A DNA stretch of 64,000 nt from contig NW_026570324.1 of assembly GCF_019649055.1 (NCBI RefSeq), positions 186,001 to 250,000 of the forward strand. Direction: 5' to 3'. A model generated the notes under the pieces. That model made no database searches. It was not told where the DNA came from and saw only the letters and a program-made list of their open reading frames with translations. Of the stretch, positions 7,566-52,331 are shown piece by piece. Every line of letters starts with the position of its first letter. Within the stretch, counting starts at the first letter, position 1. Source of the stretch: Paramacrobiotus metropolitanus. Taxonomy: Eukaryota > Tardigrada > Eutardigrada > Parachela > Macrobiotidae. The position numbers and the translations under genes are program-made.

Positions 7566-10559
7566 TTAATTCGGCGCTCGGATTAGACGTTCGGCACTGG
7601 TTGCGTCTTCCAGCAGCTCTTTCCATCGACTACGCCCCTGAAACGCAGCGGTATAGTATAGTACACGTAATAGTGATATAAAAAATGTACTGTAATAGAA
7701 CGGTACTCGTATAGTAAATGGCTTTCCAGTACGAACGTCAAAAGACATAACTTCCCGCTTCTGCGCACAGCTGCAATTCGTACCAGGATCTCCTTAGAGG
7801 ACAGCTGTCCCACAATAATCAGTTGCTCAGCGGCAATGGAGAACACGTGATCCAACTGGCTTTTGCTCGTCCACATGTCGTCACGCCGAGCTGCACCGTT
7901 AGGGAACACAATCAGTGTAGCGTAGCTGTGCCCTTTTAGGGTCTCCAGAGTGCCGGTTTGGAGCGCAGATCTTAAGAAAACACACAAATAAAATTACAAG
8001 CGATCCAGCCGAATCGCGCCATAATCGGTCTGCCGGCGTTAACATTCATACCTGGAGTTTCTCTGGAACTGCTCTAGTTCCGGATCTGGTGTCTCTAAAA
8101 GGACACCGTACAGCGCTGCAGCTCCACGACCTGCTGTTCCACGAAGTTTGCCGCTCAAAAACTGGATTATAAACCTACAATACAGAGTGGCATTATGCAG
8201 TGGTCGGAGCGACCTTTGTACAACAGTGTAGGTGGCCGCAGCGCTTTTAAATCGTTCCATGACAAAATGAGATACTCGTAATCACTTCTTTCATCTGCAT
8301 CGTTTGAAATTAGTAGAATTCCTTACCTTTTAGGCACAATATTTGCTGTATCCACCATGATATAGCGGCTATGCTCAAACGGCAACCACCGAAACCTATT
8401 GACAGCATGCCATTATTAGACTGAATAGTACCAGTACGATCAGCACACAGTACAGGACGTCAATTTTATCCTTACGTACTTTGCCGGTTTGGTCAATGTA
8501 AAAGGATTATTTCCCATTACTCGGGCATCGGTTAGAAGCGCCTGTACACTGCGACACAGCCGGGACAAGGAGCCAGGACCATCTGATTCTACGATCGTGG
8601 CGCTGGCTTGCGAAGTCGTTGAGGAGAAACTACGGCTAGCCGCGATTTTGCACGCTGCTAACATCCAGGAGACTTCGGCTTCCGGTAAAGCCTGAACAAC
8701 AAACCGTGTCAACCAACGCTGGAATATTAACCGTCAATACCGCTAACAGTGATAAAATTATGCACAACGGAAATTAATGCCGAATCCCAGTAATGGTCCT
8801 TAGTGTGGCCACTCTCGATATACATACCGCTTCGTTCGATCGCAACGTTAGCAGAATGCTGAGAATAAGCATACGGTGAGCACAACCAGTAGACGTCTTT
8901 TGATAAAGATAACTACCCGGCACGTAGCGATAGTTCACAACAATTGCGTCAATACTTGTTTACGCTCGCGCTGAGTACTGCTGTTTAGGGCATACATACA
9001 GCACTGTATGCCACATAAAACGCGTGGGATCATTCTTTTGAACAAAGCTGTTAGGTCTTACCGGGACCGGCGTGTCGATGATATTATTGACGAACTGCAG
9101 CAGGGTCTTGGCCGTCGCCCGATTGCTGGGGACCGTAACGATACACTGACGGAATATGCTGTGCAGTATCCCGAGACTGTACTGCGAATACCGAGCGGAC
9201 AGTTTATCCAGCGGAAACAGCGGTCCATTGCCATGGTGCCCAATATGAATCCCCGCTTGCGCCGTGAGGACAATCAGCTCTTTGCCAGTATCGGGACAGA
9301 GCTTGTATTTGGGTGCCTCTCCCGTTACCATCTCCACCAGCACACATCCCATACTCCACATATCGCTGGAGCGACCGATTTTCGGCCCGGTCATGGCCTC
9401 CGGGGCCATGTACCGCCACGTGCCCTCGTCGGCTTCTATTTCCATCGTCCTGGTCCGCGTCCCCAACAGTGTTCTGGACAGGCCAAAGTCCGCTAGTTTG
9501 ATGGCGCCGTTCATGCCGACGAGGATGTTCTGGCCTTTGAGGTCGCGGTGGACGATGTGGTGCAAGTGCAGATACTCCAGTCCGCTGAGAATCTGCTGTG
9601 TAATGTCCAGGACTTTCGCGTAATCCAATCCGTGTGACTGTATTGCCAGGCTTCTCAGGGTGTTGCCTACGAAAAAAAGGCTGGGGTAGAAACGTCTGCA
9701 GTCATTAAATTTTTTTGGTGTAACAATATCAGTTTGTACGTAAGGGTCAAGATTAACTGAGTAATTGTGCAGTACAGGATTCTGATTGTGTACAAGCCCG
9801 GTGGCTTAAATTTTGCGTAAAATTACAGCAAGAAATACAGATTTATCCAGACCACGGCCTCCAAGTACCAATAATCGGTTGACCCGTTAATGGTGGGAAT
9901 CTTATGGTTTTAACTTTAAGCACTTACCAGTGTCATCCAACTTTGGTTCACGTTGCAGAACCGGCATGAAATTTTATCAAATGAAGCATGATACGGAATT
10001 CGCAATACAAAGAGACTACAGCCACTTCATTACAGCAGATCCAAATGGTAATAACGAAATTTAATACAAAGTACAAGGCTGTTCAGCCACCGCATGCGAC
10101 GATGGGCTTTGCTTAAATGTGGAACGTACCTTGACATAACTCCATAATTAGCCACAACTCCCTGCTTCCTTGTACCTGCACATTCAAGTCGATCCCGTAA
10201 TATTTGACCAGGTTTCTATGCTCCACGGCCTGAATGCGCCGCACTTCCTCGACAGTGTCCTGAACGCAACCGGCATCGTCCGCATTCAGTAATTTGATGG
10301 CATACTGCTTATTGGTCGCCGAATCCACTCCAACGTAGACTCCTCGCGGACTCTGTCCACCGCGTCCCAAAAGGATTGGCGTGATGTTGCATGTGAACCC
10401 GGGATGCAGTTGACCGATGGCATCCATATAATCTAAATGTTTGCGATTGTCAGCGGATACAGAAGCCGAATTGGTGGAATTCGACGCCCTTGGATAGCGG
10501 TTGGCGCTACCAGTCTGCACGATGCTGGATATAAGCTGGGAACAGTGGGAAGTACTCAT
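7566..10559 (-). CDS. Ser/Thr protein kinase A, MAP3K-like, with conserved C-terminal extension
   Basis: Seven exons on the minus strand: 10559-10130, 9666-9062, 8691-8480, 8395-8327, 8174-8052, 7970-7784 and 7637-7566, about 565 residues. Kinase domain: glycine loop LGRGGQSPRGVYVG, ATP lysine in YAIKLL, hinge LIMELCQG, catalytic HRDLKGQN, ADFG and YMAPEA, so all catalytic residues are present. Best read as STE/MEKK-like, though the glycine loop (GRGGQxxxG) is unusual. After the kinase comes a linker, then a region conserved in kinases C, E and F (FRWLPFEHSRYIMV ... GVLLETPD ... LKGHSYATLIVFPNGA ... DDMW ... RSRWKELLEDA). The MST start matches those of E and F. This is the most diverged active member and lies opposite in strand to its relatives; it has no flanking repeat in common with them. 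Confidence 0.85.
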
Positions 10560-10999
10560 GATGCTCAGTTTCTAAGGTCATGCACTGCGAATAATGTTCG
10601 ACTACTAATAAAATTAATAACTATAGTAAAAAATCACGTGCGTACTATTAATGATCAAACGCGAAAGTGCAACTGCGGTCTGCTGCACTCGCGAGATGAG
10701 AAGTCAACGCGGCATTACACGTCCTTATATCGACAACCGCGGGAACGGTTGGTTTGTTTGTGCTGCGCGTACGGCTGGTGTTAACGATAATACAGAATGG
10801 CCTGTAGCAGCTCTGCACGTGTAGTACTGCCTTAAAATTGTTATTAAAAACGAGCATAAACTCGGCGATGGGGCGGTATCTGTATTGTACTGTGCAGTGC
10901 AGTGTTCAACTTGGTAAGTACAGTCAATACATTTCTTTATTTTAAACTTGTACAAGCAAATGCCATTTACACTTACACTTAAACTCAAATATCGAATAG
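10560..10999. other. Intergenic, probable 5' flank of kinase A
   Basis: No gene supported. It separates the start of kinase A (reading left) from the 3' end of a retroelement relic (also reading left). Frames here overlap each other without domain signatures. Confidence 0.4.
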
Positions 11000-12104
11000 C
11001 TAGAACAAGTAAAACAACTCTTCAAGCTCTTTTGAACAACCAACAGTTCCGAGGACAGAAGCGGCATTTCCACGCTGAATTTCAACACTAATACGCTGCC
11101 ACAAAAAATCGGTAGCGCGCACTTCTCCTGTTTGATCTTTTATGCGTCGGCCAACTTCATTTATGAACTGACGGGTACTGGCGCCGCAACTTCCCATAGT
11201 CTCCAAGGACACCGGTTGGAAAAAATAACGATCAGTCAATTCCTCGTAATTGCGCCTCTTTCGTTCTTCCGCGTCTTCTGCTGCCGAACCCGCTGTTTCT
11301 GATGAGCCGGCGATGTACGATATAGCAAATGTGTCGCACACCGTCACATCCCAAATCAAAGGAAGACCGTTCTTCCAAGGGAAAAGAGACAAACCGTCTG
11401 GGCGCTTCCCATTTGACCTGCACAGTCCAGGAGGCTCCAAAATAGTCGGGACTTTTGCCGATCCCAAGCTGCGCTGAATAAGGCTGTTCAGGCTTGCGTG
11501 ACGCCTGAATCTCCCCTGACTTTTTAAACATGACAAACCATGCAAACCTTGGGCGTCAACTGTTTCACCGCATCGACACTTGTGCTGCTTACAAATCGGA
11601 GCTCCCATACGTAAAGCGACTGCGACTCGTAGTCCAGTATCGTCTAAAAGCGTGCCAAGGCTAGCAACAGGCAAAGCCAACAACCAGGCACTGGCATCCT
11701 TAGTGGAGACAGCCAACAAGCGAGCAGATGCGATAACGTCGGCGTTCTCCCCTCAAGGCTTCCAGTTTCCTGATAGTCAACATGTCTGACCACAAGCGTT
11801 GATTGCTTCGATCCCCTATCGCCGGGGCGGATTTTCTTGTTAATTCTTCCCACTGATGTTCTACGTCAAGTCGGTCATCAGGGCAGTCATCGGGCACAAT
11901 GCTATTAACTAGCTCGTCAGTGGCATAAAGTGAAGAAAGGTATGCTGGTGTTGAAATTTCTTCCGCTTTCGGTAAGCCTAGCCCTCCTGATTTGACCGGC
12001 AGAGAAGCTTGCGCGTACGTAGCATCATCCATTTTGACATTTGTAATTTCTTCAGCCTTGGACTTAATCACAGCGTCAAGTACAGTCGTACAAACGTTAC
12101 ACAT
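11000..12104 (-). mobile_element. Retroelement relic: C-terminal region with zinc-finger and PD-(D/E)XK-like motif
   Basis: Two adjoining frames on the minus strand carry, in order, a segment ASLPVKSGGLGLPKAEE that in animal reverse-transcriptase polyproteins follows the RT domain. Then come ASAWLLALPVASLG, a Cys/His cluster (CKQHKCRCG...GLHGLSC) and KRPDGLS followed by LIWDVTVCDT. That last pair resembles the RPD...D signature of restriction-like endonucleases. The end is QRISVEIQRGNAASVLGT. The 59.95 kb ORF is a relative. No RT domain is visible upstream. The copy is broken (about one break) and truncated. I recall this block from RT-bearing repeats of many invertebrates, but the exact family is uncertain. 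Confidence 0.65.
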
Positions 12105-15259: not shown

Positions 15260-16080
15260 GCCCGATTTCTTTCGATCTCGTTTAATTTTCTGATTTCTGC
15301 ATTCGTAAGCTGAGATTCAGAAGATCTTTCGCCATCCGTTTCCCTTTTTAATTTATCAATTTGATGGTTCTCTCGCGATGTTTCCGAACAGTTATTTTTC
15401 GGCAAAACCTACCTAGCCGTTATAAGCCTTCTGTGTATTACGGTTGTTGTCGGTTTTGTGCCATAAAAACAATTTCCTTTGTTCTCGGCTACCATAGAAC
15501 GTTTTCAGTCAAAACAAAGTGCATTTAATGTCGATAAAAGTTGCGCAAGGTTCGTTTATTTTGTTTTGCATAACGTACAGAATTTTTAGTTGTAGTTACA
15601 ACCAGCGCCAAAATTTCCTGCATCTATTCCAACTGGAATGACCGCCCTTTGGGTTTGCGCTGTACGATCTGCAATTGTTGTTAGTTAATTTGCATACCGC
15701 ACGGGAGGACAATCATGATACTGATACCTGTTCGCCAAAGTAAACCAGTTGTTTGGAATGTAACAAGCTGGTGTACGGTTGCTCGGGCTCTCACGTCGCC
15801 GGAAGCTACAAGAAATGTGGCCGCGTGACCAAGCTCGGTGAAAGTTCGAAACGTGAGAAGTATTTGTTTCTGGAAAGCGGATACCGTTTTCATTTTCGCA
15901 GTGATGGAACGCTGGGAGTGTTCGGTCCGGCTTTTAGTGTTAACATTTTATGGGTCATAAAATTCGGACTTTACTGGAGGAGGAGCATTCTACTGCGTTT
16001 CTCAAGCAGCACTGCTGATAAAAAAAAATGCTACGGCTGTTTAGAGCACAGGGGAGTACTGCCAATAAAATTTTATTGCA
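15260..16080. other. Intergenic between convergent GPCR and pseudokinase genes
   Basis: Both neighbours end into this gap (GPCR on +, pseudokinase on -). One open frame (15753-16088, +) has scattered cysteines but no recognisable domain. I see no repeats or RNA genes. Confidence 0.35.
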
Positions 16081-18426
16081 TCAACTAGAAAAAAATGCAC
16101 CCAGGCTGCGGAATTCCATCATGAGTTCAGCAGCGGAAATTCTAGCATGTATTTCACGGCGCAAACAACTTCGCAGAACGGCAGCAAGGGAAGCCGGCAC
16201 AAGATCGCTGATAAACGGCACATATCCATAGGAAATCAGATAGTGACAATAAATGTCCGTGTTCTTGCCGAGCACATGGACGTCCTTGGTCTCGCAGTTG
16301 AAGAACGCTCTCTCGTGGTTTCCTGTGAAGCATCTTAATAGATCTAACACAATGCATCCCACACTCCAGATATCGGTTTTCTCTTCAGGAAGAGCAGGCG
16401 TGTCTAGGAACATTTCAGGGGCTGTATATCGCATCGTAACGCTTAACGGCACCACAGCATAGTGTGCTAGGCGAGCTTGCAGCTGGGGAAAGTCATCGAG
16501 ACCGCCAGTCTTTACTCGCTCTCCACCGTCGCCCATACGCTCCAGGAAGACTGTTCGCGACGTCAAATCTCCAAGCACGATATGCTTTCGGTGGAGAAAC
16601 GCTAGTCCATCCGCCAGTTCGGTACCATAACGCAGCAGGGTCTTCATGTTCAGAGTCTTATGAGACCTTTTCAGTTTCCTCATTAGAGAGCATAGAGTGT
16701 CATCTAAAGCCGATTCTGTTATAACAGTTATTTCGCGAAAAGCTTAAGGATAGTGGACCGATACATGGTGCCAAATTCGGGTACACTCACGAAAACTTTC
16801 AGTTTCACGCACTCCCAAACACTTTTTGCGTCGTTGTCCGGCATTCTGTAGCCAAAAGACTTGAACACAATGTTGTAAAAACCTTTTTCAACATCCGGTT
16901 GGGAAGTTGAAGGTGAAATAAAATTTTTAGAGTTTAAACGCACGGAGGTGTTCCAAACGTCTCGTTGTAAACCGATTCTCTTCAAGTTTTACACAAGAAG
17001 CCACACGCGCATGAAGATCGTTTATTACGCCGAACCAGATTTCGATAATTTTCGCGAATAATTTTTTTTTAAAAATTATTCTTGTTTTTTTTTAAATTTA
17101 AAACCACCTTTACCATTTTTAAAAGTTGAAAAACACGGTGAAAATCTGGTTCGGCGTAACAACGATCTTCATGCTTATGTGCATTTTTATGCAAAATTTG
17201 AAGGATTCCGATCCATAATACAGTAAGACTTTTGGTATACCGTTTTGTCTTGACACGTTTCGAAATCTATATTTCGATACCCGGACAAACGGACAAGCGT
17301 ATAGCGATGTGTTGACTATAAAATTTGCAATAAAACGATGCAAAACTGTTTGGGAGTGCGCGAAAGTAAGTTTTCTCGTATGTATGTACACGAACTGTTA
17401 CCATGTACAGTAAAACCTCCTCTTACGTACACTCCCAAGATACGTACACCTCTATCTTAAGTACAAAAAATTCTGTACCGAAACTCTCCGTAGACTACAG
17501 TACAGGGGGGAACCTCTACGTGACGTACACCTCTACGATGCGTACACGTACACCTTTTCTCTGTACCGCCTAAGCATTGAACTGTACGCAATCACCTCGA
17601 ATATACGTACACCGGGGAGTCAGCATTTATTTTTTAAATATTTGATGGGAAAATTGTGATAATCTAAATGTTGTCTTTTGTTCTGAACTGATTCGGACGA
17701 TGTTTTCTGTTTGAAGTATGTGGGAGAGACTATTTCCGCCTGCTTATATGCTGTAAAAATATAAAAATGTGTATGAACTAATGCAGCATATCTATATAAC
17801 ATATGCAGCACATTTCAGAACTGCACGCAGTGTACAGTGCAGTAGAATGCAGTACACTGAGTATTCCGCGGTGGGGCACTGCCCTCATTATACAGCCCCC
17901 CCCCAGGGGGGCTTGGGGTGGCGATTCTATGTTACGTACACCCTTGAGATACGTACGAAAATTTTTGAACGGAAGTGTACGTATCTTGGAGGTTTCACTG
18001 TACCGGGCCATTTCCTTTAACTTCTGTCTCCTGATACTCACCAAGCAGGCACTCCATCATCAGTTCAACTGTAATTCCTCTCTCGGTTTCTGTTATGTTT
18101 ATTTGCTGGTACTTTACAACGTGAGGATGTCGCAGTTTGATGATTTTTTTCAATCTCTTCCGCAGCGCCGCATAGTCAGCGGGATTTTCTCGCAGTTCCG
18201 CATGCTCTATTTCCACTACCTTTACCGCAACAGATTTTTGCGACTGCCCCATGCTGTCAGCATCCGAAAACAGTGCCTGAACTTTTGGTACGAAGCCACG
18301 ACGTTGTATCTTCCAAGGTTTACTGACGATACCGAAACGGCCTCGTCCGATGTAGTCTCTCGGGGTGCATACGTACTTGTAATTGCTGCCGAAGCGTTCT
18401 GTTAACCGGCCGTGCTGTTGCCCCAT
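16081..18426 (-). CDS. Two-exon protein kinase-like pseudokinase B
   Basis: Exons 18426-18042 and 16715-16081, about 339 residues. Exon 1 has a good glycine loop (YIGRGRFGIV) and the ATP lysine (VAVKVVEI). Exon 2 has LGDLTSRTVFL where HRDLKxxN is expected: the Asp stays but the Lys and Asn are lost. It has KTGGLDDF in place of the DFG segment, so the metal-binding Asp is not in register. RYTAPEMF and TDIWSVGCI are retained. This predicts ATP binding at most and no normal catalysis. The intron is phase 1 just after the hinge, the same position as intron 1 of kinases A, C, E and F, so it shares ancestry. It lacks the later introns and the C-terminal extension of that family. The 1.3 kb intron is almost wholly transposon. 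Confidence 0.8.
16748..18016. mobile_element. Foldback element FB1 (TTAA-flanked), interrupted
   Basis: Sits in the pseudokinase intron, bounded by TTAA at 16744-16747 and 18017-18020. The two halves are inverted repeats: left GACCGATACATGGTGCC, right (read inverted) GGCCCGGTACATGGTAAC, continuing through CGCACTCCCAAACA. A CAGT-ended element (17408-18000) is inserted in its right arm at a TA. Without that insert it is about 670 bp, the same as FB3 and FB4. No coding capacity. Confidence 0.85.
17408..18000. mobile_element. Non-autonomous pogo/Tigger-like element
   Basis: Ends CAGTAAAACCTCC and (inverted) CAGTGAAACCTCC, with ACGTACACT close behind on both sides. It is flanked by TA at 17406-17407 and 18001-18002. 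CAGT-AAACC ends plus a TA target duplication fit the pogo branch of Tc1/mariner. 593 bp, no transposase frame. Several ACGTACACCTCT units repeat inside the left half. Confidence 0.8.
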
Positions 18427-20474: not shown

Positions 20475-20479
20475 ACTGA

Positions 20480-27116: not shown

Positions 27117-27150
27117 TTAATTGTCTAATTTATATGTAATTTCTAAATAT

Positions 27151-33278: not shown

Positions 33279-36200
33279 ATGAGTATCCTATCATTACGCA
33301 TTGGCATTACCGTGCAAATTGCCATTCCCTCACGACCCAGCACCTCCAACGCAGACTGGGCTGCAGACCGGCGCCGTGCCGAGCTACAGGACTCGATTGG
33401 TCCGCTGCAACCGGGATTTCCCTGCTTCCTGACCGACACCTGCCTGGGACGGGGTGGGCAAACGGCAGCCGGCGTGTATGTCGGAATAAATGGCGTCACG
33501 AAGGAATTTGTAGCGGTTAAACGGCTGCCTGCGGACAGCCAGCAGGTGGTAGACAGCACTCTGGCTGAATACCATCTTATAAAGAGCATACCGCATACCA
33601 ATCTAGTGAGATATTTTGGACTACAGCTCAACGTATTTGCCGCTCTTCCCGGACTTCACATCGGACAGCGGGATGAGTTGTGGTTAATCATGGAGCTGTG
33701 TCAAAGTAAGTTCCATTGCGTCCAGTGGCAGTGGTGTGCAACAAATTTTGAGAACAAAATTGTAAGCTTTCGGTGGTATATGATAATATAGGTACATACT
33801 TATAAAAACGGTTTGAATTTAAACCTGGGCAAAACAACAAAGCTCAACAGTACAAGCATGCACCATCTTGGATGGATGCTTGATTTAAAACGATTAACAA
33901 TTATGTCCCGGGTTTTTGCGCTTTCCTGTGTGCCCTTGCTTTTAAGGGAAATGGCCCGGTTCATGGTAGCAAATTCGTGTACATGGACGAAAAGTTTCAC
34001 TTCCCAAACACTTCTTTGCTTTGTTTTAAGACATTTTGTAGCCTGACGATTTGTATACACTGAGGTGAAAACCGTTTGTGCACGCAACTTCCGGTTCGTG
34101 GCTTGCAGCTGTAAAACAATTCCAAAAAGTTTAAATGCATTTCGGTGTACGAGGCAAGCGACAACTCTTTCCCATCGCTTTAGTAAATTTTATCACTTTC
34201 CCTGCTGCATCTTACCCGTGTGCAGGCGCTCACGTGATACTTGATTTCAGCCGTTTCTCGTCGGTTTGCAGCTATAGTTGATTGTGCAAACTGATAAAGA
34301 ATATAGAGAAGAGCACGGCAGGCGAGATTTTATCGCCGGCTCAGTAAGCGCTGATTACAAGGGATACGATATCAGTATCACGTGAGCGCCTGCCTGCACA
34401 GTGCACACGGGTAAGATGCAGCAGGGAAAGTGATAAAATTTACTAAAGCGATGGGAAAGAGTTGTCGCTTGCCTCGTACCAAAGTCTCGTCATCGATCAA
34501 TCGATCTTCTTCAAATTTTGCGTGGAAGCCCACATATGCATGAAGATCGTTTTACACCGACCCACGGTTCTAGTCTTTTTTCAAATTTTAAAATAATTTT
34601 AAAATTTGAAAAAAATTGTGTAACTTTGATTTGGTGATCGTTTGTAACTTGGGTTTGATAAACGATCTTCGTACTTGCGTGTTTTTATGTGCGCAATTTA
34701 AAGCAGATCGGTTCATAGTGGGATTTTGGTACACCTAAACGCATTTAAACTTTCTGGAATTTTCTTATAGCCGTAACTCCCGAACCGGATGTTGCGTGCA
34801 CAAACGGTTTTCACGTCTGTGTATACAAATCTTCTGGCTACAGAATGCCATAAAACAAAGCAAAAAAGTGTTTGGGAGTGCGCGAAAGCGAAAGTTTTCG
34901 TGCATGCACACGAATTTGGCACCATGTACCGGCCACTTCCCTTAAAGGCTCTGCTTAAATGCGTGTATTTAGCGCCAAGTGCCGCAAACGTCTCTTGTGG
35001 GTCACATGCTGTCTGCAGTATGAATTGTTTTTCTTTACCAGAACTATGTGTTGGCTATTAATAAAACGAGGAATTGTTGACATGCTAATGTATAAATCAA
35101 ACTGCTTGTGTCAAGTGTGCTTCAAATAGATACAACTACGGATGCGGTTGGATGCGCAACAGCTGCAATGCTGTATGAACTGATAAGCTAGCCCAGGGTT
35201 GTACATGTAGCTTGAACAAAAACAAGGAAATTAATGCGTGAGCGTGAGGGAAGAAAGGAATGACTCATTGGCTAACCAGTGATGTGATCTACATATCTAT
35301 AGTACAATGCTTTTTCTTTCTTTATTTGAATAGGTGTTAGAAGGTTTTGGCTATGAAGTTAGTGTATAGTGAAGTTGTGCGAATTTTGCTCGTGAAGTTG
35401 CGAAAATTTTGCATATCATATGCCAGCCGTCATTTTGTGTAGCCTAGCTTGAAGTTGTATGCGAATCCAGTTAACGGTCATTGGGTATATCAAATTATTG
35501 CTGCTTTAGCCTGGAAGCGAGTAAAGGTCAATATCTACCGTACTCAATTTACGTAGCAGACATGTCTAAATTCTCTTCGCGTAACGTTTGAATTTTTGAA
35601 CTAGCTAATCAAAAGAAGTACGCACCATCAAGCCTGTCCTTTTCTTAGCCCAGTTTGTACTCTCATGTGAGACTTATTAAAGGTCCATGCACAGTTATCC
35701 GTACATTTAACTAAGTCCGTGTGCACGCACAAGCATTACAATGCGTATAAAGATATTGTATTTATACAAACAGCATCACAGTTTTTCAGGTGGGTGCATT
35801 GGTAATTTTTCAGGAGACAATCTAAAGGATTTGGCCAAGAGAAAACTGGCTTTTGAGGAAATAGTGGATATCGCTCAGCAAGTCCTCCGCGGTCTCCACC
35901 ACTTGCACGTGAACGGGATTGTTCACCGTGACCTTAAGTGCCAAAATGTTCTAGTGGGCATGGACGGCACTATAAAGCTAGCGGATTTCGGTTTAATCAA
36001 GCAGTTAGAAGGGACCATGACACGGACCAATGAGTTGCAGCCCGATACGGGCACACTGCGCTACATGGCCCCCGAAGTAGTTCTCGAAGACGCCAACAGA
36101 GAGTACAAAATAGGTCGCCTAAGCGATATATGGAGCTTTGGATGTATGTTGCCGGAAATGCTGACCGGAAATGATCCCGAATATGTGATTGAATTTACCA

Positions 36201-37759
36201 ACATCGCCAAGGCAGTCTTGCATATTATTCAAGGGAATGGTCCGCTGTTCCCGTCAGGACTATCCGATCGGTTCTCTCCAGAACAGATCCGGGTACTCCA
36301 ACAGGTTTTTCGACGATGCATCGTCAAGGAGCCGGATAATCGGCCCCACGCAATAGACTTGCTCAATTTTTTCGAAAGCATTTCTTCACGAGCGAAGCCG
36401 GTAAGATAGGTTTACCGCACTTCCGCCCGTTTCAACTTTTGCATCAACGGATTACTTGCGCATATAGATCTTGAACAACTGGTCATCCCCGTATTTCAGT
36501 TTCCTGAAGACGCAAAAATTAGCAAATTAACTGGGTGACAAACTCCTGAATCTGCATTTTGTTTTATGCATAAATGCAAATTTACAAGTTTATCCTCATT
36601 TTTTACTCATCAGTTACGCAGTTCCAATAACGTACGTTTTGTGCCGGTACAGAGACAGCCTATCTGGATTCTGAAACCCAGTTATTTTTATTAATTTTTG
36701 TACCTTGAACAAATAAGAAACAAGAAGATTCAGTTGTTCAAGATGTACTCGTATAGCGCAGGAGATCCGTTGTTGAGAAAAGTAGAAGTTGCAGCTTAAT
36801 AATAATAATTATCATGGTGTCTGTGATATTGATCACTGCACAGCAGACAGCTGACGTGGATGAGTTGGCCCAGGCAGTGCGTTCGTGGAATATAAACGGC
36901 AACACTCGGCACTGGGCGTCGCAGTCAGCTTCTTTCGATGGCGGCGGCGGCGGTGGAATTCTGGGTAGTGTGCGGAAACTGCTGAGAAATGCCGGCAGAA
37001 TGAAAATCATCCCTGTTACCGAGCGAGAAGTCGCCAAGTAAGTTGAGTCGAAGTAACTCTGTGCTCAGTCATTTCTGCAACCATATCGGTTTCTTCATTG
37101 CTTTTTAAACGCAGATTCCGGTATCTACCATTTAAATACCCGCGTTACATTATGGTTCTTACAAACGACCCAAAAACGTACGTACAGACACTAATCACGG
37201 TACCCTGAAAGTCGGTCAAATTACGCACGATTTTTCAACCTACATAGGTTCATTAGGCAGTTCATCAATGAGCATTATGATCTGGATGAAGCAAATAACC
37301 GCATTCCTTTCGGCATTCTTCTGGAGTCAGATGATAGAGACCTCGTGCCACCGGAAAGCAGAATGAAGTTCGTACAGCATACATTAAGCGATTGCTTCGG
37401 TTTTCCGGTACAGATATCTGTTGATGCAGTGCTCGCACGGGTACGCTGGAAAGCACACAGGATCTATCGTTTCACACGCTGATCGTATGGCCCAATGGCG
37501 CGGCGTGTCGCCGGGACATGTGGACCACGAAGGATCAGCTGGAACGTGTGTTTTCCGTTTCGGCCGTTCAAGTAATCGTTGTTGGCCCAGTGCTGACCAA
37601 AGAATTTCAGGTTGGCTGACTGCTTTACTGGGCTTGCTAGAAATATAGCCTGTTTTCGTACAGAAAGCACGTACCCACTGGAAAGGTTTGGTTCGAGATG
37701 CGGAGAATGTTGGACGCCTTATTGGATCGCCGCCATCCGTTGCCTGTCGCAGTGCCTAA
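33279..37759 (+). CDS. Ser/Thr protein kinase C, MAP3K-like, with conserved C-terminal extension
   Basis: Seven exons: 33279-33705, 35814-36400, 36847-37037 (or from 36844), 37115-37177, 37248-37367, 37430-37610 and 37664-37759, about 554 residues. Glycine loop LGRGGQTAAGVYVG, VAVK lysine, hinge LIMELCQ, HRDLKCQN, ADFGL and YMAPEV are intact, so it should be active. A Gly-rich linker (DGGGGGG) leads to the C-terminal region with YLPFKYPRYIMV, GILLESDD, LIVWPNGA, RRDMWTTKDQL and VIVVGP. The exon 6 acceptor is the GCAG ending at 37429, because the GTACAG ending at 37413 leaves an in-frame stop. Intron 1 (2.1 kb) is the longest in the family and hosts FB3 with V inside it. Same strand as E and F, with related flanks on both sides. 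Confidence 0.85.
33946..34941. mobile_element. Foldback element FB3 (TTAA-flanked) in kinase C intron 1
   Basis: TTAA at 33942-33945 and 34942-34945. Arms GGGAAATGGCCCGGTTCATGG and its inverse (ACCGGCCACTTCCC), continuing through CGTGTACATG and CAAACACTT. A second inverted-repeat element (34150-34476) interrupts it; without that it is about 670 bp. Confidence 0.85.
34150..34476. mobile_element. TA-flanked MITE V inside FB3
   Basis: 327 bp with near-perfect inverted repeats of roughly 75-95 bp beginning CGAGGCAAGCGACAACTC. TA lies at 34148-34149 and 34477-34478. FB4 reads GTGTACCAAAAGTC at the matching point, the uninterrupted sequence. No coding capacity. Confidence 0.85.
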
Positions 37760-38475
37760 TTGTCGTCGATTGTCTCGCCTTAGTATGTAATCTCATTGTA
37801 CCGAATTATGATAGTTTTCTTAAGAAATCATGTTGCATTCCCATTTCCCAAACAAGTTTTTCATTTACTGGCATACTGCTCATAGATCGCATTAATTTTC
37901 GCATCAAACCTTGACTGCAGCATACCAGCGCTCCTTTTTGAATCCCAGCATCATAAACACTGTACTTTGTTTTTATACCAATTTTTTATCGTTATCACTT
38001 GTGAGGAGGAGTGGCCTCTCCGTTCACCCGCGCACAGGCGGCTGCTAGGTTGTTTTGCTGTTTTTGCCGTGTTTTTCTCCATCTACCAGATTCTAAATCT
38101 GGTAGATTCTTTAGTTGCTAGATTTCGTCGTCTGAGTTGGATGCTTATTCCTTTTTGCCCCGCAGCAAGGTGCTGCGATGGCCTTTGATGTGTTGTACGT
38201 GAGAAAGATAAAGTGTGCAGTGTGTTGGCGTTCTGTTTCCGTTTCTGTTCGCGCACAGGGATGAACTAGCCGTTCATCCCCTGTTAGAGGCTTATGGCAT
38301 TCAAGTGGTCTTTTTGCCGCATCAGCGATTGTGCCGACACACTCAAAAAATAGTCATGACTGATAAGAATGTTTAGCGCCTTTTTTCAGGGCTAAGGCCA
38401 AATACGCATAACATACAAGTACACAGCCCGGCTACCGAATAACACGTGCAGTACCTCAATATACAATAGTATTAC
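37760..38475 (+). other. 3' flank of kinase C with a perfect hairpin
   Basis: Contains a perfect 12-bp-arm palindrome at 38091-38117 (ATCTACCAGATT, 3-base loop, AATCTGGTAGAT). A block with TTTAGCGCCTTTTTTCAGGG near 38370 is repeated about 430 bp downstream of kinase E (near 47670), so the duplication unit reached past the gene. Confidence 0.6.
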
Positions 38476-38479
38476 TTAA

Positions 38480-39157
38480 GGGAAATGGCCCGGTACATAG
38501 CGTCAAAAATGGGATACATGCGCTAAAACTTCGCTTGCGCGCACTCCGAATCATTATTTTGTAATACTTTATGTCATTCTAAAGCTAAATGATTTGTATA
38601 CATTGTTCTGAAAACCGTTCGCGCGCGCAACATCCGGTTGCTGAGATATGGTGTATTAAAATGGGCGAAAAGTTTAAATGCATTGTTGTGTACCAAAAGT
38701 CTGGTTATTATCCGATCTTCTTGAAACTTTGCTGTAAAAGGCACATGGCTATAAAGTCGAAAGTGAACCAATTTCAGGTCCATAGCACTTTCCCATAATT
38801 TTAAAATGAATTTTAAAATTTTTGAAATTCATTTTAAAATCGGAAAAAATGCTATGGATCTGATATTGGTTCACTTTCAACTTCATGGTCATGTGCCTTT
38901 ACAGCAAAGTTTCAAGAAGATCGGATAATAACCAGACTTTTGGTACACAACAATGCATTTAAACTTTTCGCCCATTTTAATACACTATATCTCAGCAACC
39001 GGATGTTGCGCGCGCAGACGGTTTTCAGAACAATGTATACAAATCATTTAGCTTTAGAATGACATAAAGTATTACAAAATAATGATTCGGAGTGCACGCA
39101 AGCGAAAGTTTTAGTGTATGTATCCCATTTTTGACACTATGTACCGGGCCATTTTCC
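38480..39157. mobile_element. Foldback element FB4 (TTAA-flanked)
   Basis: TTAA at 38476-38479 and 39158-39161. Almost the entire 678 bp is one inverted repeat about a centre near 38820 (AATTTTAAAATG core). Ends GGGAAATGGCCCGGTACATAG and its inverse. The cleanest and probably youngest copy of the family in this window. Confidence 0.9.
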
Positions 39158-39173
39158 TTAACAGATACAATTA

Positions 39174-39201: not shown

Positions 39202-40723
39202 CTTCCTGGAGCAGACAACCCATTCATGGGACTTCGACAATGACATTACAGGTGTTAAAATGACATTGCTTTGTCTGGTCGAAAACCAAAATAAAAAGAA
39301 ACAAGAAAGATCAAAACAGGCTATCTAACTAGCACTTCGAAGTCCAACACCTTTAAAGCAAACTTAAAAAACCCAACAGTTTCCGAGTTTAAAATTTCCG
39401 CATTAACCTTCTGCACGTGTTCAAGCAGCTGTTTCAGTCGTACAGCGAAAGTGGACTCGCCGATCTTCTTCTTCACTTTCGTGTCAACACGGTTACCAAT
39501 CCGCAGGTTGTAGTGTTGTTTCATATCGCGGAAGTTCACGAGTCGAGACAGATAATCCGGCACAGGAAATTTGCTTTTGTTCCAGATTTTAAAAAGCCAC
39601 ACCGCTTCGCTCTGCTTCCATCGATGGAGGATGGGAGTGATTCCCAGTTCCTGGTACAAGGTCCGCTTGAAAGGGCCTTTGTATCCAGTCATGGCTCGCA
39701 GTGCTTTGCGCTGTAGTTTAGCCAGTCCTTCCTTCAGTGCCGCAGACGCCGGCGCCCACACAGTTGAACAATAGTCCAAGTGTGACTGGACGCAGGCATG
39801 ATAAAGGCTCCGAAGTTAAGACCGACCTAGCCCTTCCTTTGCCCGATTAATCATGGATATCCCGTAGTTCGCATTCTTCTCGACTCTCGCGAAGTGCTTG
39901 CTCCATTTAAGGTGCTGATCGATGTCTACTCCAAGGTAGCGTACGCACTTTTCAACTTCCAGTTTCTGTTCATTAAGTTTCACGGACGGTTGAGATTTAT
40001 CTCTGTGCTGTTCTGAACAAATGTACATTAGCTTGCACTTTCGTTCATTCAAACACAAGGAATTTTCTTCGAACCAGGAAGTTATTCGACCAAGCGCATG
40101 GTCAATTTTCTCCCTGGCGGCGGCTTTCGTCTTTTCAGTAGCATAGGCAATTGTATCATCCGCAAAGCATTCAAGACTGCAGTCGCCGATATCGATGTTC
40201 AAAAGCCCGTTTATGTACAGGGTAAACAAAATTGGCCCCAGGACAGTACCCTGAGGCACGCCCGATAGTAATGGTAGCCAACTGGATACTTTTGTCGATG
40301 AACGTACACGCTGCACGCGGCCGGTCAGGTAGCTAAAAAACCACTGTAGCACTGTTCCCTTTATGCCGTAGTCAAGAAGCTTGGCTAACAGTTTTTTGTG
40401 CGAAACAGAATCAAATGCTTTTTTAAGATCAAGAAAACAGACTGCTGTGACACGACCGGCGTCCATGTTTTTGCGCCAGTCTTCCGTCACTTTCAGTAAA
40501 AGGGTCTCACATGAATGGCCATTGCGGAATCCGGACTGGTGTTCGGAAAGCATCTTGTGCGCTTTGACCGCATGCACCAGCTGCAACTGCACAACCTTTT
40601 CAAACACCTTTGACAAGTTACTCAGCAAGGAAATCGGCCGAAAGTCATCTGGTGTAGTCGGGCTGTCTGATTTTGGAAGTGCAGTCACATCCGCCTGTTT
40701 AAAAATCTCCGGATAAATGCCAC

Positions 40724-41193
40724 GTGACGGAGAGATCAGTACGATAGGAATAATTACCGTAAATAATCTATCCTACCGACCTACTCAACGACAGAGTATG
40801 AGCTAATAATCTCAATGTGGCATAGCTAAGCCTAAGAATCTACGCGAAGCGAGAACTGCATCTCCGACGATATTTAATTAGAAACTCCGAAACTGCCAAA
40901 ACTCGTAATGAGAGAACTGATCATGTAAAATACTGCCACTCACGGACTTATATAGACACGGCGCATCCGTGTAGAAACAACCAAAAGTAAATCCGAACAC
41001 AAAAGAGAAAGATCGAGAAAGTACAGCGAATAATAGAAAGTACGAGTCAAGCCGTCACTTTACGTACTGTATTGTCGAGTCAACTTGCCACCTTTTTTTA
41101 CAGTGAGTCGTATCCGATTAGCATATAACTCACTGTAAGAAAAGGTGGCAAGTTGACTCGACAATACAGTACTGTACTGCTATATTCCGTCAC
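40724..41193. mobile_element. ~470-bp insertion U in the LINE, with long internal hairpin
   Basis: The LINE reading frame is continuous (LSLAR joined to GIYPEIF) if this segment is taken out. Its ends share GTGACGGA and AGTAC in inverted sense, and AC (GT) may be duplicated at the junctions. The right third is a hairpin with ~45-base arms (41063-41105 and 41125-41172) through TTGTCGAGTCAACTTGCCACC. Family unknown. Confidence 0.65.
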
Positions 41194-42801
41194 ACGCGCC
41201 AGCGACAGGTTAACCATTTTTGTCAGTGGTTCGGAAATCAGTGGTACCATCAATGGTATCATTCGGTTGGGCAACCCGTTTGGTCCGGTACTTTTCTTTT
41301 TAACAGCAATCTGGCGTAGAATGGATAAGATAACATCACACGACACAGGTTCGAAACTGGAGAAGACTTCATCAGCACAACCGCCCACAGGTGGCGTCGT
41401 AGGGGCAGTATGGTCGTTTCCGTGCAGGCCTTGTGTAACGAAGTGTCTGTTTTGAGACTCAGGGTCTAGTGGTTCCGCAGTGTGTTTTTTAGACTTCCGA
41501 AGAAGTCTGTTTAACTCCTGCCACACTTTTTTCCCTTGGCGTTTGTTTTCATCAAAATATTTTCGTTTGGACTCGGCAATAGATTTACGTACGGCATTCT
41601 TTAGCAATTAGTACTGTTCAGCAAACGTCGAAAATTAGGGAGTTCCACGTGACTGACACTTACGGCGGTAGGCGTCGTCTTTGTTTTTGATTAAGGTTTT
41701 CACTTCCGAGTTCATCCAGGGGGGTTCTGTGCGCCGGACCCTCCGAGATCTCTTTGGGAAACATTCATCCACAACTTGGGTTAGGTCCGCAACGAAACTG
41801 CCGATAACGGAGCTCACGTCTTCACTATCGATAACTGCGTACTTTTCCGCCACCTGCGAAACTAACTGCAGAAATTTTTCTTCTGGCGTATGGCTCCACA
41901 AGCGAAAACAAACGGTCTCGTGGGTAGGAACGGCAGCTTTATAGTTAGCTTTCGCAAAACACAAACGATGATCTGAGTAATACACGTCCTCGGCTGGGCA
42001 AGCGGAATAGTCACTTGCAGGGGAACACAACATAATATCAATCTTCGTCGCGCTACATGAAACTAGGCCACTTTTCGTTGAACGGTGAGCCACACGGGTG
42101 GGCCCCACGACTTTATCCACGAGATCAAAGTTATCCATTAAGCGATGAATATGACGATAGTAAGGCGAAAAAGCATTAGAAATATCAATATTGATATCCC
42201 CAGAAATCACAAAATCACAATCCGAGTGCTTCGTTAAAACTTCGTCCACGTGATTAAACAAAAACTCTGTATCAAAGGCGTTAGAATCAGGCGACCTGTA
42301 TAACAGTCCCAAAAGTACCTTACGTATCCCGAACCGCAGTTTTAGCCACAGGGTTTCGCAATGGGTGTTTGTCTCCGAGCGCGAAACTTCTTCAGATGGG
42401 ATATGCGAAGGTACATAAACTAGGAGGCCTCCACCCTTTGCTTTACCCCAAGCTTTACTGCGGTCCTTTCGATACAAAGCATAATTGCGAATCCGATACA
42501 GATCATCAGGTTTAGCAGAATTGAGATGAGTTTCAGAGATACAAAATATTTTAGAACAATTATCGTCAGATTCCAGGAGATTTTCGATGAGATCAAACTT
42601 AGAATCCGAGAAACCCTGAATATTAAGGTGCTGATACGTGACGCTGGAGAGCTTGGAACGTTTTTTCTTAGCCATTTTCGAATTTCGACTTAACTCTGTA
42701 GAAACTATATATCAGAAGATTCCTTACTTAAAACTGAAAATTTCTATACAAATACCAAGCCATAAAAGTTTCTACAGAAGATGTAAAGAGGGAAAAAGCA
42801 T

Positions 42802-42837: not shown

Positions 42838-42844
42838 GGAAGCA

Positions 42845-43349
42845 GAGAATCCCGTCACCGGGGAACAGTATGCGGCTAAACTTTTGCCTGCGGACGACTG
42901 GAAGGTGATTAATGACACCGTCGCTGAATTCCACCATATAGGCAATAAACACCATATAAATTTAGTGAAATATCATGGCATTAAGCTCAATATAGCTGTT
43001 CCCGGACGTGCTATGGGGACACAGGATGAGCTGTGGTTAATCATGGAGCTTTGCGAAGGTAAAATGCACTTCTACATTAAAAATTCTGCTCAATACAAAA
43101 TTTTCAGTATGAGAATGGCGACTTGACAAACGTACCGAGCGTCGACAGTCCATATTATCGATATCGTGCGATTCGATTATTGTGCATTGCTTATTGTTTT
43201 ATGAATTTACTTTTGCGGTTTGCATATTTTGTAATTACAGTTTTACGTACACGTTTTTTCTGAAAAGCCACCTCATTATTTGTGCGCATCGCATTATATG
43301 TATAATATGCATTCAAATATGAAAATTTTATATATGAATGGATAGCATT
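42845..43349 (+). pseudogene. Near-identical partial copy of kinase E exon 1 and intron 1
   Basis: Corresponds base for base to 44999-45503, with two differences that I could see (near 43200). It starts inside exon 1 (NPVTGEQYAAK) and runs through LIMELCEG and the donor into intron 1, where it stops. The glycine loop and everything after intron 1 are missing, so it cannot make a kinase. The high identity means a very recent duplication, recent gene conversion, or an assembly duplication. Confidence 0.85.
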
Positions 43350-44779: not shown

Positions 44780-47252
44780 ATGAGTACTCGTATCCAACCA
44801 TTACGCAATACCATGCAAGTGGCCATTCCTTCACGACCAAGCAGCACCTGCACCACAGCGGTGGATGCTTTCGATAAAGATCACCACCGCGCCGAGCTGA
44901 AGAAATTAATTAATCCGCTGCATCCCGGATTTCCCTGCGTCTTGACACAAGCATATTTGGGACGTGGTGGACAGACGGTAGCAGGAGTGTACGTTGCCGA
45001 GAATCCCGTCACCGGGGAACAGTATGCGGCTAAACTTTTGCCTGCGGACGACTGGAAGGTGATTAATGACACCGTCGCTGAATTCCACCATATAGGCAAT
45101 AAACACCATATAAATTTAGTGAAATATCATGGCATTAAGCTCAATATAGCTGTTCCCGGACGTGCTATGGGGACACAGGATGAGCTGTGGTTAATCATGG
45201 AGCTTTGCGAAGGTAAAATGCACTTCTACATTAAAAATTCTGCTCAATACAAAATTTTCAGTATGAGAATGGCGACTTGACAAACGTACCGAGCGTCGAC
45301 AGTCCATATTATCGATATCGTGCGATTCGATTATTGTGCATTGCTTATTGTTTAATGAATCTACTTTTGCGGTTTGCATATTTTGTAATTACAGTTTTAC
45401 GTACACGTTTTTTCTGAAAAGCCACCTCATTATTTGTGCGCATCGCATTATATGTATAATATGCATTCAAATATGAAAATTTTATATATGAATGGATAGC
45501 ATTTGTGTAATGTGTATCGTTCAATAATATGACGAATGTACTCGTACGAAGCACATAAATATACCGGACACTTTTGCAGAATACACCTTAAGAGAGCTGG
45601 CCAAGAGAAAACTGGCTTTTGAGAGAATAGTGGATATCGCTCAACAAATCCTCCGCGGTCTCCACCACTTGCACGTGAACAAGATTGTTCACCGTGACCT
45701 TAAGTGCCAAAACGTCCTAGTGGGCCTGGATGGCACTATAAAGCTAGCGGACTTCGGGCTGATCAAGAAACTAGAAGGGACCATGACCAAGACCAAGGAA
45801 TTGCCAGCTGACAAGGGGACATACCTGTACATGGCCCCGGAAGTATTTGCGCCCACTGCAGAATGCAAGATAGGCCGGAAAAGTGACATCTGGAGCTTTG
45901 GGTGCCTGTTGAGCGAAATGATGACAGGAGATCTGCCCAAATATGCGATGAACTTTACAAATGATGCGCAGATTGTGTATCACATTGGTGTTGAGAAAAA
46001 AGGTCCTCTTTTTCCAGCGGAGAACCTGCTGCATCGCTTCTCCTCAGACCAGATTCAGTTTCTGGAACAGATATTTTGGCAGTGCACTGCCACGGAGCCG
46101 CGTGAGCGGCCCCACGCCTCAGACTTACTCAAATATTTCGAAACTGGCATTGTCGCAGCCAAACCGGTACGATCAGCTATTAATTTTAGTGAGTGTTGTA
46201 CGAAGCACCATAATTATCGGTACTGCACAGTGCAGTCATATTTATTAATTATTACTACTTCAAGTAGATACTTTATGCACCTTAATGCATTCATAATTAA
46301 ATAACTTAGATAAAGATTTGATATTTCTTTCTACATAGAAAGCTGATGTGGATGCTTTGGCCCGTGCGCTTCATTCGTGGGATATCAGCAATGACAACCG
46401 ACGCACCGTGACGCAATCATTATCCTTCGACGGTGGCGGTGGACTATTGAGCAGCGCGCGATCGCTGTTGGCGGATGCCCGCCGAATGAAGGAAAATCCA
46501 TTTCCCGAGCAAGATGTGGCCAAGTTAGTTTCAGCTGATTCTTTACAGTAATTGCAAAAGTTCGTTGTAATTACTTATAATTAAACGTAGGTTTCGCTGT
46601 TTGCCGTTTGAGCACGACCGCTACATCATCGTTCATACAAAGGACGCGAAAACGTACGCATACCACAATTGAATTCCGTTAGCCTCTTCTATTTCTCATA
46701 ATCTTTTTTACCCATATAGGTTCATCTCGCAGTTCACCAGCACGCAACGTAACCCGACATCCGGCCGCATCCCTGTCGGTATTTTGGTGGAATCGTTAGA
46801 CAGTGACCTTTTACAACACGCAGACAGAGCAGAGTAAGGTTTAAACACATCTAACATATATAAAAATGGGCTGGTACTTTATTTGTCGCTACAGAACCGA
46901 AATTCGTATGGGTACGCTGGATATCATGAAAGGTCACGCGTTCGACACAATGTTCGTTTGGCCCAACGGGGCTCGTCGCGAAGACATGTGGACCAGGAAG
47001 GATCAGTTGGAAGGGGCGTTTTCTCTTTCGGCCGTTCAACTGATCGTGGTCGGTCCAGTGCTGAACAGGGAATTTCAGGTACAGTACGCTCTAAGTCTGC
47101 AGCTATTGCAAAAGTCGGTGCTCTCGATCTTTATAGCTCTTTTTTTCTATATACAGCAAGCACGTAGCCGATGGAAACAGCTGATAGACGATGCCAAGGA
47201 GGCGAAACGCTTAGCCGGATTGCCGCCATCCGCCACCTGTCGCAGCGGATAA
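44780..47252 (+). CDS. Ser/Thr protein kinase E, MAP3K-like, with conserved C-terminal extension
   Basis: Seven exons: 44780-45212, 45580-46166, 46339-46523, 46591-46653, 46720-46833, 46895-47078 and 47157-47252, about 553 residues. Start MSTRIQPLRNT. Kinase motifs: LGRGGQTVAGVYVA, YAAK lysine, LIMELCEG, HRDLKCQN, ADFGL and YMAPEV, with SDIWSFGCLL after it. Linker FDGGGGLLSSARSLL. C-terminal region: FRCLPFEHDRYIIVHTKDA, GILVESLDSDL, MKGHAFDTMFVWPNGARRE, DMWTRKDQL, LIVVGP and RSRWKQL. Exon lengths are equal or within 3 bp of those of F throughout. Part of its exon 1 and intron 1 was copied to 42.8 kb. Predicted active and cytosolic, with no signal peptide or membrane segment. Confidence 0.9.
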
Positions 47253-49331: not shown

Positions 49332-52331
49332 ATGAGCACTCGTACCAAACCATTACGCAACACCACGCATGTTGCCATTCCTTCACGACCGAGAACCTCC
49401 ACGAAAGCGATGGATGCTTGGGATAAAGATCATCACCACGCCGAGCTGAAGGAACTACTTCGTCCGCTGCATCCCGGATTTATCTGCGTCCTGACCAAGA
49501 CATTTTTGGGATGTGGTGGACAGACAGTAGTCGGGGTGTACGTTGCAGAGAATCTGGCAACCGGGGAGAAGTATGCGGCGAAACGCTTACCAGCAGATGA
49601 TCCGAAAGTGGTGGAAGACACCATTACAGAATACCGCCTTATACACAATATACAGCATCCGAATTTAGTTAGATATTATGGAATTGAGCTTAATATAACT
49701 GTCCCCGGGCCATATGTCATGGGACCACGGGATGAGCTGTGGTTAATCATGGAGCTTTGCGAAGGTACTACTATTATTATGAACTCTACTACCACTTACC
49801 AGTTAGTATTCTACTGCATAAAATTTTGGATACGAGTACGTACGTACGACTTTACAAACGCACCGAGTAAAATACTCACTTCCTTACAGACCACACTACT
49901 TTCCGTATTACTTATTATTTATATCATAATACTGTATTAAGGGATTTGAATATTGCACGCTGAGAGTTTATATTTCAATAAGCACATCAATGAAGCACAT
50001 TATCGCACGCTTATTAGTTATTTCCCCTTTTAACAATAACAATAAAGTCGTTTAGAAAAGACCCGAGGCGCATAGCTCGTAATTTACGGTAATACATAAG
50101 ACAAACGTAAACAGTATATTATTATTGACCTTTGCAGATTACACCTTAAGAGATATGGCCAAGAGAAATCTAAGTTTTGAGAAGATAGTGGATATCGCTC
50201 AGCAAGTCCTCCGCGGTCTCCACCATCTACACGAGAGAAAAATTGTTCACCGTGACCTCAAGTGCCAAAATGTCCTAGTGGGCCTGGATGGCACTATAAA
50301 GCTGGCGGATTTCGGGCTGATCAAGAAACTAGAAGGTACCATGACTAAGACCAATGAGCTACAGCCCGATACGGGTACGCTGCGCTACATGGCTCCCGAA
50401 GTACTCGATGGCACCAGCGGAGAGTACAAAATAGGCCGCCGAAGCGACATTTGGAGCTTCGGATGTATGCTGCCGGAAATGCTGACCGGGAAGGCTCCCG
50501 AATATGCCGTTGAATTTACCAACGTCGGCAAGGCAGCCATGCATATTATCGAAGGGAATGGTCCGCTGTTCCCGTCAGGACTATCCGATCGGTTCTCTCC
50601 AGAACAGATCCGGGTACTCCAACAGGTTTTTCGACGATGCATCGTCAAGGAGCCGACTAATCGGCCCCACGCAACAGACCTACTCAAAGATTTCGAAGGG
50701 GACTTTTTACAACTGAAGCCGGTAAGATGAATTACGATAAATACAAATAGCAGGCAGCAGCAGTTAATATTTCCATGTATTATTTACGAGTTAGTACTAG
50801 GTACAAAATATGCTACGGCGGCTACGCTGATCAGCTTTTCTATAGTCGACCCAGGGCTATGTTGATTTTATTTCGTTTTGTTATTTTTACTATCGTGTTC
50901 CCGCTTTTTTAGATATGCAGAATTGATGTTTACTGCATTCGCCTTCCAGTTTAATTAATTTTACCGTTAATTCTTGTTAGAGAACCGACGTGGATGAGCT
51001 AACCCGCGCGTTGGATTCGTTTGTTATCAGCAACGACAATCGTCGCCCCGTGACGCAGCCAACATCTTTTGATGGTGGCGGCGACCTTTTGTGCAGCGCG
51101 CGGTCGCTTCTGATGGATGCCAGCAGAATGAAGGACAATCCCTTTCCCAAACGAGAAGTGGCTAAGTAATTCTTTCCGCTTCCTCATCTTGACTGCGGCA
51201 GTTTTCTGATTTATACTGGCATTAAACTGCAGGTTCCGCTGGCTACCGTTTGGGTTCGACCGCTACATCATGGTACATACAAAGGACGCAAAAACGTATG
51301 CAAAATCTCTTAAGAAAACCGTAGCGTTTGCTTCTGTGATTGTCAACTGTTGTTTCTTCATCCCACAGATTCATCTCACAGTTCATCAGTGGGCAGCGTA
51401 ATCCACTATCCAGCCGCGTTTCTGTCGGGATTCTGGTGGAGTCGTTGGACAGTGACCTTACGCTGTATGCACAAAGAGCAAAGTAAGGCTAAGAATGTTT
51501 AATGATAATATGTTTAAAATTTCGTCATTTTAATTAGTGTACAAGCTTGTCCCGTAATTTCCATCGCATCAGAACAGCGATCATTACAAATTTACGTGTT
51601 GCGCGTAAATCCGTACTACGGCGCGCCACGCCACACTGTTTAAACACGTGACCTGCATTTGGCTGGCTGGTGGCTTGGTACACGCCATATAACTCAATGA
51701 GAATAACAGTAACTCCCTGGCGTAAGATGGCTAAAAACGGTCGGTGTGGTAATGGACAATCTAACTACGGAGCGGATTTAGGCAATCAGATAAGCGTAGT
51801 GACGTGGCCATCGTTTCAAGCGCAAATTTCGCGCTAGCTGTACCTTTACGATGGAAATTACGGGACAAGCTTGTAAACATGTGAAAGCATACTGATATGT
51901 GCATTGGCTGTTGGCCTGTTGCCTAATAAAAATCATTATATGAAGACAGAAAAATTGCGTATAAAAATGATCACGTGTGATTGCAGAATTCACGCGGGTA
52001 CACTGGATGCGATGAAAGGTCACGCGTTGGACACATTGTTCGTGTGGCCCAACGGCGCGGCTCGCCGCGAGGATATGTGGACCATCAAAGATCAGTTAGT
52101 CAGGGTCTTCTCTTTTTCCGCCGCGCAGCTGATCATCGTTGGATCATTGGCATCGCCAGAATTTTTGGTATGTTGGACTTGATATCATGCTATTACGTTG
52201 GCTGTCGTATTATCTTGCCGCTGTTTTTTGTGCAGAAAGCACGGAGTCGATGGAAAGATCTGGTGCAGGACGCCAAAGATGCTCAGCGTCTTGTCGGAGC
52301 ACCTCCGTTTGTCGCCCACCGAAGCGCATAA
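49332..52331 (+). CDS. Ser/Thr protein kinase F, MAP3K-like, with conserved C-terminal extension
   Basis: Seven exons: 49332-49764, 50138-50721, 50981-51165, 51233-51295, 51369-51482, 51987-52167 and 52236-52331, about 551 residues. Start MSTRTKPLRNT. The glycine loop is LGCGGQTVVGVYVA, with Cys where its relatives have Arg. YAAK lysine, LIMELCEG, HRDLKCQN, ADFGL and YMAPEV are intact. The C-terminal region has FRWLPFGFDRYIMVHTKDA, GILVESLDSDL, MKGHALDTLFVWPNGA, REDMWTIKDQL, LIIVG and RSRWKDL. The C lobe (GNGPLFPSGLSDRFSPEQIR) is closer to C than to E although F and E are neighbours, hinting at gene conversion. Intron 5 contains a 332 bp MITE. Confidence 0.9.
51542..51873. mobile_element. TA-flanked MITE in kinase F intron 5
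   Basis: Perfect 25-bp inverted ends beginning CAAGCTTGTCCCGTAATTTC, TA at 51540-51541 and 51874-51875, 332 bp, non-coding. A relative of the flanking host sequence at 7003-7004 lacks the insert, which fixes the boundaries. Confidence 0.9.

Follow-up and report, generated by a model that had tools for sequence, protein, structure and literature searches.

What is the conserved region that follows the kinase domain in four genes (A, C, E, and F) of the window, the 64,000-nucleotide stretch of Paramacrobiotus metropolitanus DNA analysed here, and what could it do for the kinases that carry it? We examined the gene models, the conservation of the C-terminal tails, their matches in sequence and structure collections, and their likeness to superfamily-1 helicases.

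Kinase genes with a shared C-terminal domain

Seven-exon models for all four genes were built by hand from sequence. Gene A occupies 10559-7566 on the minus strand (exons 10559-10130, 9666-9062, 8691-8480, 8395-8327, 8174-8052, 7970-7784, 7637-7566), and the other three lie on the plus strand: C at 33279-37759 (33279-33705, 35814-36400, 36847-37037, 37115-37177, 37248-37367, 37430-37610, 37664-37759), E at 44780-47252 (44780-45212, 45580-46166, 46339-46523, 46591-46653, 46720-46833, 46895-47078, 47157-47252), and F at 49332-52331 (49332-49764, 50138-50721, 50981-51165, 51233-51295, 51369-51482, 51987-52167, 52236-52331). The outer ends of models A and F, 7566 and 52331, coincide with the limits given for the kinase family in a preliminary description of this DNA. 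All 24 introns (six in each gene) ran from GT to AG, the four models contained no internal stops, and the intron phases 1,0,2,2,2,0 were identical throughout, which upholds the proposed joining of kinase and tail in seven-exon genes. By eye, exon 2 of C has an alternative upstream acceptor.

Two introns stood out. Intron 5 spans 504 bases in F compared with 61-81 in A, C, and E because it contains an element of 342 bases (51537-51878) whose inverted ends, each 42 bases long, are 86% complementary. Intron 6 of E (47079-47156, 78 bases) is stop-free in frame; if retained, it would lengthen the protein by 26 mostly hydrophobic residues and leave it unbroken.

We consider it barely credible that exons 3-7 form a separate gene or that the joins are a gene-model artefact. 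The joins do come from sequence-based models, and a form that ends within intron 2 and holds only the kinase may exist, with the frame stopping there after 2-45 residues; one ATTAAA occurs in intron 2 of E, and C has an open frame with an ATG ahead of exon 3. However, all six introns keep the same phase and GT..AG ends in every gene. AATAAA was absent from intron 2 of all four, exon 3 of E and F is immediately preceded by an in-frame stop, and the order kinase, linker, domain was kept in three plus-strand genes and one minus-strand gene.

Exons 1-2 of each gene encode an intact kinase domain, and the catalytic Lys, HRD, DFG, and APE were present in 4/4 proteins. The two proteins scanned matched Pkinase (PF00069) at E=4.9e-49 for A (residues 64-334) and E=3.9e-49 for F (residues 59-328). 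Among the best 60 of 197 solved structures matching the F kinase domain, most belonged to the STE group (OSR1, ASK1/MAP3K5, PAK, MAP4K4, TNIK), and the top single match was an EGFR entry. A, C, E, and F are related STE/MAP3K-like kinase genes, each encoding a kinase, a low-complexity linker, and a C-terminal domain of about 150 residues. They share the intact catalytic motifs and the structural neighbours of STE/MAP3K-type kinases but differ from them in this last part, as no solved structure with the C-terminal domain was found by sequence.

Within the tail, exon 3 encodes the linker with its Gly stretch and exons 4-7 encode the conserved domain, which has 150 residues in A (7566-8395, minus strand), 153 in C (37115-37759, plus), 152 in E (46591-47252, plus), and 151 in F (51233-52331, plus). 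The preliminary description had assigned 190-200 residues to four small exons; the four small exons stand, with 150-153 residues, and the whole tail measures 212-220 residues in five exons (3-7). RYI(I/M)V, G(I/V)L(V/L)E(S/T), Q(L/V)I(I/V)VG, and R(S/T)(R/H)WK-L--DA occurred in 4/4 tails. The strongest block, LFVWPNGA-RREDMWT-KDQL, lies in exon 6 and was the same in E (46895-47078, plus) and F (51987-52167, plus), although E is one residue short; it carried substitutions in C (37430-37610, plus; KGH to QDL and R-E-D to R-R-D) and in A (7784-7970, minus; VFPNGAARRDDMWT). The motif cores first described after the kinase and linker were thus recovered in all four genes, with substitutions in the strongest. 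Invariant columns made up 69/232 of the four-paralogue tail alignment, and those between the proposed motif V strand and motif VI helix (see below) were PNG, one Ala, one Arg, and DMWT.

Pairwise amino acid identity among A, C, E, and F was 48-69% for the kinase part and for the tail alike, so the idea that the tail had been conserved while the kinase domains diverged does not hold. The selection that had been suspected is borne out: among C, E, and F, dN/dS (NG86) was 0.28-0.34 in exons 1-2 and 0.23-0.37 in exons 4-7, and exons 4-7 are under purifying selection in these three genes (silent sites are saturated or nearly so in pairs involving A). Conserved like the kinase and with ratios this low, the tail genuinely belongs to the protein and is under selection.

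Likeness of the domain to superfamily-1 helicases

Pfam returned no match up to E=10 for any of the four single tails or for the exons 4-7 consensus, and this includes the helicase model AAA_12 (PF13087) as well as PB1, CNH, CRIB, SAM, and WD40 after the kinase domain, in agreement with the first reading that no named kinase accessory domain is present. Sequence searches of the PDB found only two designed proteins for the whole-tail profile (E 0.36-0.40) and no match for the exons 4-7 consensus. Peptide patterns and tblastn, which reach fairly close relatives only, detected none in 84,980 GTDB bacterial and archaeal species genomes or in the IMG/VR viral contigs; a UPF1 fragment used as a query likewise had no match in the bacterial and archaeal genome contigs. 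No title on such a kinase-tail protein appeared in the open-access literature as represented by titles and abstract openings. The tail domain is a real, uncatalogued kinase C-terminal domain.

As for its origin, we consider it about as likely as not that this is the second RecA domain (RecA2, ‘AAA_12’-like) of a superfamily-1 helicase in degenerate form, with the Sen1/senataxin branch closest to it. The profile and the fold comparison, each of them weak, agree on RecA2 of superfamily 1. The preliminary description had left the fold unassigned, which stands as far as library matches go, while these two comparisons make superfamily-1 RecA2 a possible assignment. The motif order and spacing of RecA2 were guessed by eye in the tails and recorded before any helicase comparison. 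In the proposed register, RYI(I/M)V with the helix after it would form the first strand and helix of RecA2, GIL(V/L)ES the motif-IV strand, GTLDxMKGHxxDTLFV motif V with its following strand, KDQLxRVFSxSAxQLIIVG the motif-VI helix and strand, and RSRWKxLxxDA the last helix (HWNQLIQDA in SETX). Exon 6 of E would hold the motif V and motif VI counterparts as TLDxMKGHxxDTxFV and KDQLxxxFSxSAxQLIVVG, with the register taken from hhalign MAC alignments and the strand-helix-strand arrangement from an AF2 model.

For the profile comparison we used six human RecA2 fragments, all of which Pfam recognised as AAA_12 (6/6), and a 23-sequence set that joined these six with 17 from viral contigs (19 loci, two near-duplicates left out). 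The four-paralogue whole-tail profile aligned with the six human fragments at P=0.007 (hhalign probability 5.5%). Restricted to exons 4-7, the profile gave P=0.0055 against the six human fragments (1/300 column shuffles reaching the score), P=0.0023 against the 23 sequences (1/300), P=0.0018 against SETX, UPF1, SMUBP2, and DNA2 (0/300), P=0.0015 with a score of 26.4 against the Sen1/SETX set (0/300), P=0.0028 against Sen1/SETX plus UPF1 (1/300), and P=0.0035 against an eight-sequence set (1/300), where the templates were picked after looking and overlap, so that P-values and shuffle counts are not independent. Each single paralogue scored 21.5-26.4 against the Sen1/SETX set. The hhalign probability never exceeded 17% with the four-paralogue profile and was 22% with E alone, and no score was significant alone. 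For motif V and the W-x-x-L-x-x-D-A helix, the MAC alignments agreed with the register guessed by eye. A bacterial AAA_12 set was weaker (P=0.036, 11/300 shuffles), as was a mixed set (P=0.022, 6/300). The bacterial template had the best spacing by eye and was rejected since it scored worse than the eukaryotic sets.

The eukaryotic helicase sets scored above all 200 decoys, fragments from 76 E. coli open frames (best decoy 20.1, mean 12.5), in a comparison that is not like for like as the decoys are single sequences and the helicase sets multiple alignments. Taken singly, the human helicases covered a wide range: SETX (22.8) beat 200/200 decoys, MOV10 (19.9) was beaten by 2, UPF1 (17.8) by 4, DNA2 (14.5) by 33, SMUBP2 (11.0) by 148, and ZNFX1 (8.8) by 194. 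Yeast Sen1 scored 24.3 and Chaetomium Sen1 20.3. The decoys also included seven fragments of true superfamily-1 helicases (7/200), five of UvrD at 10.3-15.2 and two of HelD at 12.2 and 15.0, none of which stood out. Single bacterial sequences may escape the method, the likeness may be specific to Sen1/SETX, or chance may have produced it, and we lowered our confidence in a helicase origin because of these fragments.

For the fold comparison we modelled exon 6, intron 6, and exon 7 of E as one open frame, translated intron included. The AF2 model (pLDDT 66.7, pTM 0.35) had a strand at 15-21, a helix at 35-42, a strand at 45-51, and a helix at 58-106 that spans the translated intron. Foldseek against 350,542 PDB chains ranked 1qhh_D and 2pjr_B, which we take to be PcrA, first and second (E 0.68 and 0.73, probability 0.44, not significant). 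Both are helicase fragments of 95-96 residues. Yeast Upf1 stood at rank 26 among the best 50 of 121 matches, and no E fell below 0.6. In BFVD, 7 of the best 50 of 248 matches were named helicase, a raw count not scaled by how common helicases are in that library; these included UvrD-family entries and two described as UvrD-like C-terminal domain, and 14/50 of the best rows were nameless. A model of exon 6 alone was set aside as too poor (pLDDT 52.5); the only helicase among its best rows was Dbp5, a DEAD-box protein placed 10th of 29.

The Sen1/senataxin RecA2 (superfamily-1B, the second half of Pfam AAA_12) shares with the tail its strand and helix order, a motif-V-like T-(L/V)-(D/E)-x-x-(K/Q)-G-x-x-x-D, the strand LIIVG, and a final helix W-x-x-L-x-x-D-A, and it gave the best raw scores in the profile comparisons. 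The tail differs from it in lacking the RecA1 domain with Walker A, the motif IV Tyr/Gln, the motif V Gln (except in C), and the motif VI Arg, in the loop joining motifs V and VI, which is rebuilt around PNG and DMWT, and in the missing AAA_12 match reported above. In the aligned register the motif V Gly was kept in 3/4 tails, the motif V Gln occurred in C only, and the motif VI Arg residues were missing in 4/4. The six helicases share 15 invariant columns, of which the tails retained almost only the motif V Gly, and C lacks even that. The gene models consist of kinase, linker, and the 150-residue domain, and Pfam scans of whole A and F matched no RecA1. UvrD/PcrA (superfamily-1A) resembles the tail in that its C-terminal part supplied the top two Foldseek matches of the tail model, yet the profile scores of the UvrD fragments from E. 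coli match those of decoys and the tail is without the catalytic residues. Judged by its lack of a Pfam match, of the catalytic motif residues, and of a partner domain, the tail is not a member of the AAA_12 family. Overall, the likeness to helicases is suggestive, not proven.

A lineage-specific alpha/beta domain unrelated to helicases, which reached a RecA2-like order of strands and helices by convergence or chance and would still serve as a regulatory or docking module, is also possible, if somewhat doubtful. The absence of a significant match in any library or collection searched suits such a domain, and so do the missing helicase catalytic residues, the modest profile P-values, and bacterial helicases that do no better than decoys. 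Chance is harder to reconcile with eukaryotic helicase sets that beat 200 decoys and 299 or 300 of 300 shuffles, and with a search of the whole PDB by Foldseek that put superfamily-1 helicase pieces on top. That the kinase is instead fused to a signalling domain of divergent TIR-like or other Rossmann-like type seems to us quite improbable. In F, FDRYIMVHTKDAKTFI looks like TIR box 1 by eye, and TLR2 as a single sequence scored 21.1, beating 200/200 decoys, but TLR1 (14.9), SARM1 (13.3), RPS4 (10.8), and MyD88 (10.6) all fell within the decoys and no TIR Pfam model matched the tails. We rejected a TIR identity on the profile scores, where a five-sequence TIR family profile reached 9.9 against the decoy mean of 12.5.

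Predicted role of the C-terminal domain

Since Walker A and its RecA1 domain are absent, as are the motif IV, V, and VI residues, helicase activity, whether ATP hydrolysis or unwinding, is not expected of the tail. We infer that it is most likely a non-catalytic docking or autoregulatory module. On a helicase origin, the kinase would be tethered through a helicase-type surface of the tail, the loop with the invariant PNG, A, R, and DMWT is the predicted contact site, and the tail would choose substrates or regulate the kinase in cis. A fuller scenario is that the kinase cluster captured half of a helicase of Sen1/senataxin type, its RecA2 domain, which then lost the motor residues and now serves as a sensor or targeting module by which nucleic acid or helicase complexes switch or aim the kinase. 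We regard this chain of events as unlikely in its entirety. If the helicase origin itself is right, the four genes show a kinase architecture that the searched copies of Pfam and the PDB do not contain, and a motor domain put to regulatory use, comparable to pseudokinases, which are reused kinases. A RecA2 identity predicts that the domain folds as RecA2 and has no ATPase activity, with the PNG/DMWT loop as its contact site.

Kinase fragments and other features of the window

Fragment B (16081-16743, minus strand) is a kinase C-lobe (PF00069 E=6.5e-14) and probably a pseudokinase or relic because, by eye, its HRD and DFG are replaced by LGD and GLD. The 508 bases at 42842-43349 match 44996-45503, a stretch of kinase E with sequence from exon 1 and intron 1, at 99.4% identity. 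They are a recent partial duplication of that gene and are perhaps the kinase D of the preliminary description. The copy adjoins a LINE-like element on the opposite strand, with a reverse transcriptase at 39819-40772 and an endonuclease-like frame at 41638-42711. A tblastn search of the window with the tails (E up to 0.01) found no C-terminal domain near either B or the partial duplicate.

Among ten open frames scanned, Pfam recognised astacin, chitin-binding peritrophin-A, 7tm_1 (a rhodopsin-type receptor), and reverse transcriptases, a set that marks the window as animal DNA. The open frames at 11003-11752 (minus strand) and 59947-60858 (plus strand) had no Pfam match (E up to 0.001) and share by eye wording such as RPDG and WDVT; they are perhaps the tail ends of reverse-transcriptase-related elements. 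Large inverted-repeat elements lie at 38469-39168, 33942-34946, and 16744-17379, with arms of up to 214 bases that are 97% complementary, and one of the elements sits inside intron 1 of C. They match each other in part (16744-16869 vs 34945-34818, 83.7%; 34697-34945 vs 38726-38476, ~74%). Dispersed direct repeats of 82-86% identity occur outside the kinase genes, pairing 55864-56175 with 62791-63098 and 538-728 with 6059-6249.
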